From Bacteriovoracales bacterium (GTDB lineage: Bacteria > Bdellovibrionota > Bacteriovoracia > Bacteriovoracales > Bacteriovoracaceae), in NCBI GenBank assembly GCA_028346125.1, contig JAOMEV010000006.1:1-64000 (forward strand): a DNA stretch of 64,000 nucleotides. Reading direction: 5' to 3'. The notes beneath the pieces were generated by a model, which was not told where the DNA came from, ran no database searches, and saw nothing but the letters and a program-made list of their open reading frames with translations. Below are positions 28,165 to 30,241 of this stretch, in pieces. The position numbers and the translations under genes are program-made. The stretch's first letter is position 1; every line of letters begins with the position of its first letter.

Positions 28165-28494
28165 ATGTATAACGATTTTTTTGTCAGTGAAAATTTAAAG
28201 ATAGAATTTCTTAATTTTGTACCAGACTCTAAGGACAAAAACCGCTTGAGAAGTCTTCTTGATCGAGTTGAAGAATCTTCTCCAAGTAACTCTCTAATAC
28301 AAGTAGAGTTCAAAAAAGAAAAAGATATCATTACAGGAAATATCCAAATTTTTTCTCAAAAAACAAATTTTAAAGAAGAAAACTCTGACGAGAACATGTC
28401 TTCCCTCATTGAGAGACTTTTCAACTCCTTAAATGAGCAAATCGATACATGGAAAAAGCGTCGATTTAGTAAAATTGATGAAATTTTAGTTTAG
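28165..28494 (+). CDS. Putative HPF/RaiA-like (sigma-54 modulation fold) small protein
   Basis: C-terminal LIERLFNSLNEQIDTWKKRRF resembles the HPF/RaiA helix; weak similarity by eye. Confidence 0.45.
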   Translation: MYNDFFVSENLKIEFLNFVPDSKDKNRLRSLLDRVEESSPSNSLIQVEFKKEKDIITGNIQIFSQKTNFKEENSDENMSSLIERLFNSLNEQIDTWKKRRFSKIDEILV

Positions 28495-28499
28495 AAATC

Positions 28500-28519
28500 C
28501 CCTCCTTTGAAAAGGAGGG
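28500..28519. terminator. Hairpin between convergent genes (no strong U-tract)
   Basis: ccctcctt-tgaa-aaggaggg. Confidence 0.5.
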
Positions 28520-28528
28520 TGTATAATC

Positions 28529-28780
28529 TTAGGCCATAATATCGTAAGAGCGAATGGTTTTTCTTCCATTGGCCGTACATTTTTTTTGAGCTTGCTCAAC
28601 AAGAAAGTATACATATTCATTCATTGCATCGAGTGCATCTGAAGAAACATTATAACCTTTACCCTTGAGAGCATCTTTTGTTTTAGAAGCAACTAGAAGC
28701 ATTTCTTTGCTTTTTTTAGCAGATTTTTTTGCAGCTTTTTTAGTCGCTTTTTTTGCCGTTTTCTTTTTCGCTTTGGCCAT
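28529..28780 (-). CDS. Bacterial histone-fold protein with Lys/Ala-rich N-terminal tail
   Basis: MAKAKKKTAKKATKKAAKKSAKKSKE tail, then SKTKDALKGKGYNVSSDALDAMNEYVYFLVEQAQKKCTANGRKTIRSYDIMA (histone helices and GRKT motif). Confidence 0.85.
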   Translation of the reverse strand: MAKAKKKTAKKATKKAAKKSAKKSKEMLLVASKTKDALKGKGYNVSSDALDAMNEYVYFLVEQAQKKCTANGRKTIRSYDIMA

Positions 28781-28872
28781 TTTTTACCTCAACATTTGTA
28801 CAAGTTAATAATGAACGCGATTCTAGGGGCTAAAGCCCCTTAACGTCAATCCTTAATTAACAAAAGATTAAA

Positions 28873-29296: not shown

Positions 29297-30241
29297 CTAA
29301 GAAAGCTCTTTGAGATAATTATCTAGATATTTGAGGTCTGGTAAGAAGTGAAAGGATTTATTTTTTTGAAATTTGGCCAAATTAAAGCGAGCAGCGCCCC
29401 CTAGCCATAAGGACTGACCTTTTGACATCCCCTTGGTTAACCTCTCCATAAACCCATTTAAAAAATCTTCTTTTTGGGGTGCTACAAAACTATTTGCAGA
29501 GAGTAAAATTACATTGGCCTCTACTGATTCAGAAACTTCAAGAATTGTTTCAACATTCATATTAGGCCCTATATAAAAAAACTTTAACCCATAATGGCAA
29601 CAAAGAAGCCCATAAAGTAGAAGACTAAACTCCGAATGATCTGTTTCTGGAGTCGCTAGCGCCACGAGGTTTGGGCTCCTAGATTTCTGTTTATAGTTTC
29701 TAAAAAGAACATGGCCAATATGAAATTTAAGCATTGAAGATAATGCCTGTTCCTGAGAAATATTAAGCTCTCCTCTATAAACCCTTATTCCAACTTCCTG
29801 AATAAGAGGAGAAATGATATCAAGAGCAAGATCCCTTGGAGAATGTGTTATCTTTAATTTTTCAATTTCATGGGCGATAATATCAAGCTTATATTGCTTA
29901 ATCGCAAGCATGAGGCCATCCAACGATGCCTGGAAGTTCTTAGAGGAATCTACTTCATTAAGAGAAACCTTTTCGGGTTCAAACTCATCCGTTTTACCAA
30001 GCTTTTTCAGGAATGCTTTCAGCTCATCAACGGGTTTTTGAGCAATCGTACCAATGGAGCTCCCCAAAGAACATAACTCAGAAAGAAGACGAAGTTTTTC
30101 AATATCATCATCGCTATAAAGCCGCCTTCCAGATTCATTTCTGGACGGTGCGACAGCATTATATCTCTTTTCCCAGGCCCTTAACGTATGAGCTCCAACT
30201 CCTGAAAGTTTAGAGGCTATTTGAATATTATATTTCCCCAC
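29297..30241 (-). CDS. MerR-family regulator with cobalamin-binding-like C-terminus (CarH/LitR/CarA-like)
   Basis: HTH IASKLSGVGAHTLRAWEKRYNAVAPSRNESGRRLYSDDDI; C-terminus VGIRVYRGELNISQEQALSS and ATPETDHSEFSLLLYGLL. Confidence 0.8.
   Translation of the reverse strand: MGKYNIQIASKLSGVGAHTLRAWEKRYNAVAPSRNESGRRLYSDDDIEKLRLLSELCSLGSSIGTIAQKPVDELKAFLKKLGKTDEFEPEKVSLNEVDSSKNFQASLDGLMLAIKQYKLDIIAHEIEKLKITHSPRDLALDIISPLIQEVGIRVYRGELNISQEQALSSMLKFHIGHVLFRNYKQKSRSPNLVALATPETDHSEFSLLLYGLLCCHYGLKFFYIGPNMNVETILEVSESVEANVILLSANSFVAPQKEDFLNGFMERLTKGMSKGQSLWLGGAARFNLAKFQKNKSFHFLPDLKYLDNYLKELS

Follow-up and report, generated by a model that had tools for sequence, protein, structure and literature searches.

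A Lys/Ala-tailed histone gene of a Bacteriovoracales bacterium, placed with the face-to-face histones

Among bacterial histones of known structure, HLp of Leptospira perolatii (PDB 9QT0/9QT1/9QT2) is a face-to-face (FtF) histone that forms a stable tetramer and wraps ~60 bp of DNA, and it was studied as a short His-tagged form (PMC12701072). HBb (Bd0055) of Bdellovibrio bacteriovorus is a DNA-bending dimer that has no long tail. According to PMC11390915, FtF histones are defined by their predicted tetramer and conserve R48, N52, R54, T56 and D61, while bacterial dimer histones lack R48 and N52; the same paper describes mostly positive tails as common in bacterial FtF histones, members of which, from Bacteriovoracia and Leptospirales among others, join an FtF core to a mostly positive, non-conserved N-terminal tail. 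In the literature covered here there is no test of tailed bacterial FtF histones with their tails. Lys/Ala-rich, disordered tails presumed to neutralise DNA are also found in eukaryotic H1 and in bacterial H1-like proteins such as AlgP, whose Lys/Ala/Pro-rich tail has been proposed to bind polyanions or tether granules (PMC9239181).

Here we describe a gene for a tailed histone in a window of 64,000 nucleotides (the whole stretch of DNA analysed), from a genome that clusters with Halobacteriovoraceae MAGs in the class Bacteriovoracia, Bdellovibrionota (Table 1). The gene encodes a real histone and is a fresh example within the described class of DNA-wrapping bacterial histones, and it comes from the same class of bacteria as tailed FtF histones in PMC11390915. 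Since tails and Bacteriovoracia FtF histones are both already described there, it is not a new kind of histone. The details added here, as read from the sequences, are K/A/T tails conserved in composition and variable in length, several apparent gains or losses of the tail, a tailless FtF paralogue, and a predicted promoter confined to the tailed clade; the main text of PMC11390915 does not describe, clade by clade, the K/A/T make-up of the tails, the selection on them, the promoter or the paralogue without a tail.

Table 1. Features of the histone locus (positions in the window)
Feature	Positions	Strand	Basis
MerR-type regulator, weak B12-binding-domain match, CarH/LitR-like layout	29297-30241	(-)	
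Predicted promoter TTGACG-18-TAGAAT, 39 nt upstream; seen upstream of tailed-clade orthologues	28820..28849	(-)	
Shine-Dalgarno GAGGT, 5 nt 5' of the ATG of the tailed form	28786..28790	(-)	
Tailed histone CDS, 83 aa, ATG to TAA	28529..28780	(-)	ORF, Shine-Dalgarno site
Lys/Ala tail at the N-terminus (residues 1-26), disordered by prediction, with net charge +12	28703..28780	(-)	
Histone fold, residues 27-83	28532..28702	(-)	PDB matches, profile, AlphaFold2, Foldseek
Helix alpha1, residues 29-40, with S32-K33 DNA-contact motif	28661..28696	(-)	AlphaFold2 model
Helix alpha2, residues 47-70; K67 occupies the site of FtF R49 (HLp numbering)	28571..28642	(-)	
Loop 2, N71-G72-R73-K74-T75: FtF Asn (HLp N53), Arg (R55), RKT motif	28556..28570	(-)	
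Helix alpha3 (short), residues 78-82; includes the R-D clamp residue D80	28535..28549	(-)	
Perfect inverted repeat between convergent genes	28500..28519	(-)	
Convergent downstream neighbour, weakly S30AE/HPF-like (ribosome hibernation factors)	28165-28494	(+)	E 0.0018, below Pfam cut-off

The histone core and its expression signals

A PDB sequence search with residues 27-83 returned HLp (9QT0) at 7.7e-11, HBb at 9.4e-5 and HTkC at 1.6e-3, and a profile built from 17 members gave HLp an E value of 5.8e-18 (67.7 bits), HTkC 3.6e-9 (39.5 bits) and HBb 7.7e-9 (38.4 bits). The AlphaFold2 single-chain model had a mean pLDDT of 73, with values mostly of 80-90 in the core and below 50 for residues 1-21, and its top Foldseek match was HLp 9QT0 (target TM 0.77). 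By sequence, profile and fold alike, the nearest solved relative is HLp and not Bd0055/HBb. The model showed a histone fold with no winged helix, and the linker-histone family was absent from the Pfam matches, among which CBFD_NFYB_HMF fell just below the cut-off. Helix alpha3 is one short turn of 5 residues, not the three turns that, together with a long alpha2 and a four-helix bundle, characterise archaeal nucleosomal histones. These matches and helices bear out the earlier note, which had proposed from the letters a histone-like pattern at residues 27-83 with a GRKT loop 2 and a shortened helix 3, and had named structure prediction as a check; its coordinates for the open reading frame were right as well, and the strand, which it left unstated, is the reverse one. 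Its further proposal, a tailed version of Bd0055/HBb, gave way to an FtF assignment.

At the sites of R48, N52, R54, T56 and D61 the window protein carries K67, N71, R73, T75 and D80. The FtF Asn (N53) and Arg (R55, HLp numbering) were present in 92/92 relatives with at least 50% core identity, a set in which some sequences are duplicates of one genome, and HLp position 49 was Arg in 60 and Lys in 32 of them; K67 is a conservative change. This residue pattern, together with the universal Asn and Arg, places the window protein with the FtF histones on sequence grounds. It further shares with HLp the short alpha2, the one-turn alpha3, the R-D clamp and the DNA-contacting S-K pair in alpha1, and it has Lys and Arg where HLp has K21 and R59. 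Unlike HLp, it has an RKT loop, K67 for R49, Gly for K54, Val for T27 and Ser for G29, and its 26-aa Lys/Ala tail stands where the HLp chain begins a few residues ahead of the core.

The 83-aa reading frame is not a chance one, judging from its Shine-Dalgarno site, the selection seen in both tail and core, and the orthologues found throughout the family. We considered and rejected a tailless form initiated internally at M27: M27 has no Shine-Dalgarno site, and the spacing of GAGGT suits a start at M1. The gene is thus expected to yield the tailed form, and the tail, judged by this position, is translated. A near-consensus promoter was found upstream of 20/52 type A genes (mostly ending in YDILA) and 0/31 type B genes (ending in DF or DI), against 0.35 expected for the whole set of 83 genes from mononucleotide shuffles, which suggests high expression of the type A genes; we infer that the protein is abundant. 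The promoter spacer contains a palindrome, GGGGCTTTAGCCCC, which we discarded as an operator since the two other genus members do not keep it. Downstream, the inverted repeat CCCTCCTTT-TC-AAAGGAGGG is a possible terminator, though a terminator scan did not call it.

Selection, composition and length of the tail

The tail, MAKAKKKTAKKATKKAAKKSAKKSKE, contains 13 Lys, as the earlier note had counted, and its net charge is about four times that of the histone core (~+3 per chain). In three genus members, pS was 0.35-0.80 and pN 0.017-0.033 in the tail, compared with 0.28-0.74 and 0-0.008 in the core. With a tail pN/pS of ~0.02-0.1, only two amino-acid changes (T8A and A21V) and no change of any Lys, these substitution counts indicate strong purifying selection on the tail within the genus. 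Across genera, 37 tailed sequences averaged 49% Lys, 28% Ala and 12% Thr, with ~+0.5 charge per residue, and A, T, P and S swap freely in the tails of other genera. Tails were found in 36/58 type A sequences and 1/33 type B sequences; they are 11-41 aa long in tailed members and 0-41 aa over the whole family, several relatives having just 2-8 residues ahead of the core. On a tree built from 59 columns and weakly resolved, parsimony called for 9 tailed/tailless changes, a count to be taken as several, suggesting that the tail was gained or lost several times. Conservation of the tail, which the earlier note had asked about, holds for its composition and for selection within the genus, but its length varies and the family has tailless members. 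The disordered basic tail joined to a histone core, also claimed there, agrees with the low pLDDT of residues 1-21 and the charge of +12, and the likeness to H1 is confined to the disordered, Lys/Ala/Thr-rich composition; the window protein has no winged helix and carries a short, N-terminal tail of 26 aa on a histone-fold core.

Mode of action and alternatives

The explanation that we favour, and consider probable, combines an FtF tetrameric wrapping core with four tails that neutralise nearby DNA. Given the FtF type and the proximity to HLp, the base mode is likely a tetramer wrapping ~60 bp and not the bending or coating by dimers that the earlier note had assumed. Histone-fold dimers would pair into a ring-shaped tetramer, with loop 2 and the C-terminal end of alpha2 making the contact, and this tetramer would wrap ~60 bp of any DNA, as HLp does. 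Four disordered tails, with ~+48 in total compared with ~+12 for the core of a tetramer, may then neutralise adjacent duplexes or the DNA on its way into and out of the wrapped core, adding compaction without sequence specificity; it is the +12 per chain, about fourfold the charge of the core, that points to DNA beside the wrapped core as the target. Because HLp can wrap DNA although it lacks a long tail, and several relatives have only 2-8 residues there, the tail cannot be essential to the basic role of the fold. More tentatively, and with considerable doubt, one short protein might do both eukaryotic chromatin jobs, as a nucleosome-like wrapping core with a linker-histone-like neutralising tail whose length is tuned by lineage, and the tailless paralogue may form heterotetramers that set compaction.

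The substitutions K67 for the tetramer Arg, Gly for K54 of HLp, and Val and Ser for T27 and G29 count against a tetramer, and a weakening effect of K67 would suit a tailed, HBb-like dimer that bends or coats DNA. HBb comes from the same phylum, is the third solved relative by profile, and shares the histone fold, the short alpha2 and alpha3 and the RKTxxxxD loop. We nevertheless find such a dimer unlikely: the profile score of HBb lies some nine orders of magnitude below that of HLp, the FtF Arg and Asn are missing from bacterial dimers (PMC11390915) while N71 is present here, and HLp joined the window clade outside HBb (SH-aLRT 90) in a tree that is weakly resolved and has long branches.

Other readings concern the tail. 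Its composition and disorder resemble those of the AlgP tail (PMC9239181), so that it could mainly bind another polyanion (RNA or polyphosphate) or tether granules to the nucleoid, but it is 6-7 times shorter, sits on a DNA-binding core, and has no hint of polyphosphate in its gene neighbourhood, which makes this reading quite improbable. We hold it just as improbable that the tail is low-complexity sequence under almost no selection, which has persisted by chance while its length drifts: a range of 0 to 41 aa and the free interchange of A, T, P and S in other genera would fit drift, but the low tail pN/pS in the genus, the unchanged Lys and the average of ~0.5 charge per residue in tailed members argue against it. 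In Bacteriovoracia, relatives with a nearly identical core carry natural tails that range from 2 to 41 residues, a series that makes the role of a bacterial histone tail directly testable; some of these relatives come from isolates, namely Bacteriovorax sp. BSW11_IV and an isolate of Halobacteriovorax marinus.

Genomic setting and distant relatives

The next same-strand gene upstream of the histone is a gamma-glutamyl-cyclotransferase-like ORF. Conserved operon partners were rejected, as the neighbours are kept only in the two other genus genomes: the MerR-type regulator adjoins the histone in the genus only, and the S30AE-like neighbour is poorly kept even there (43%). The genome encodes three HU/IHF-type proteins, so the histone is not its sole architect and shares the nucleoid; no second Lys/Ala-rich protein was found in the assembly, which is 68% complete.

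The tailless FtF paralogue occurs in many sister genomes, and several genomes hold one type A and one type B gene (for example G009, G034, G035, G083, G084, G086, G087 and G089). A phage origin was rejected, with no match in phage records and just two among viral contigs, one with 52% identity and the other with 37%. The former is a tailless FtF-like histone on the 109-kb, putatively viral contig IMGVR_UViG_3300037755_000497 (L109:3004-3195), possibly a phage-borne FtF histone, and adjoins an ORF that contains very long runs of Asp/Glu and is rich in Lys at its ends. Close FtF relatives with ~61-82% core identity were also seen in contigs of MAGs assigned to Gemmatimonadota, Zetaproteobacteria and Omnitrophota (L042, L043, L044, L048 and L039), reflecting either horizontal transfer or mis-binning. 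Finally, histones of ~150-170 aa with a Cys-rich N-terminal domain like that of published ZZ histones (L025 and L030) occur across the family and phylum.
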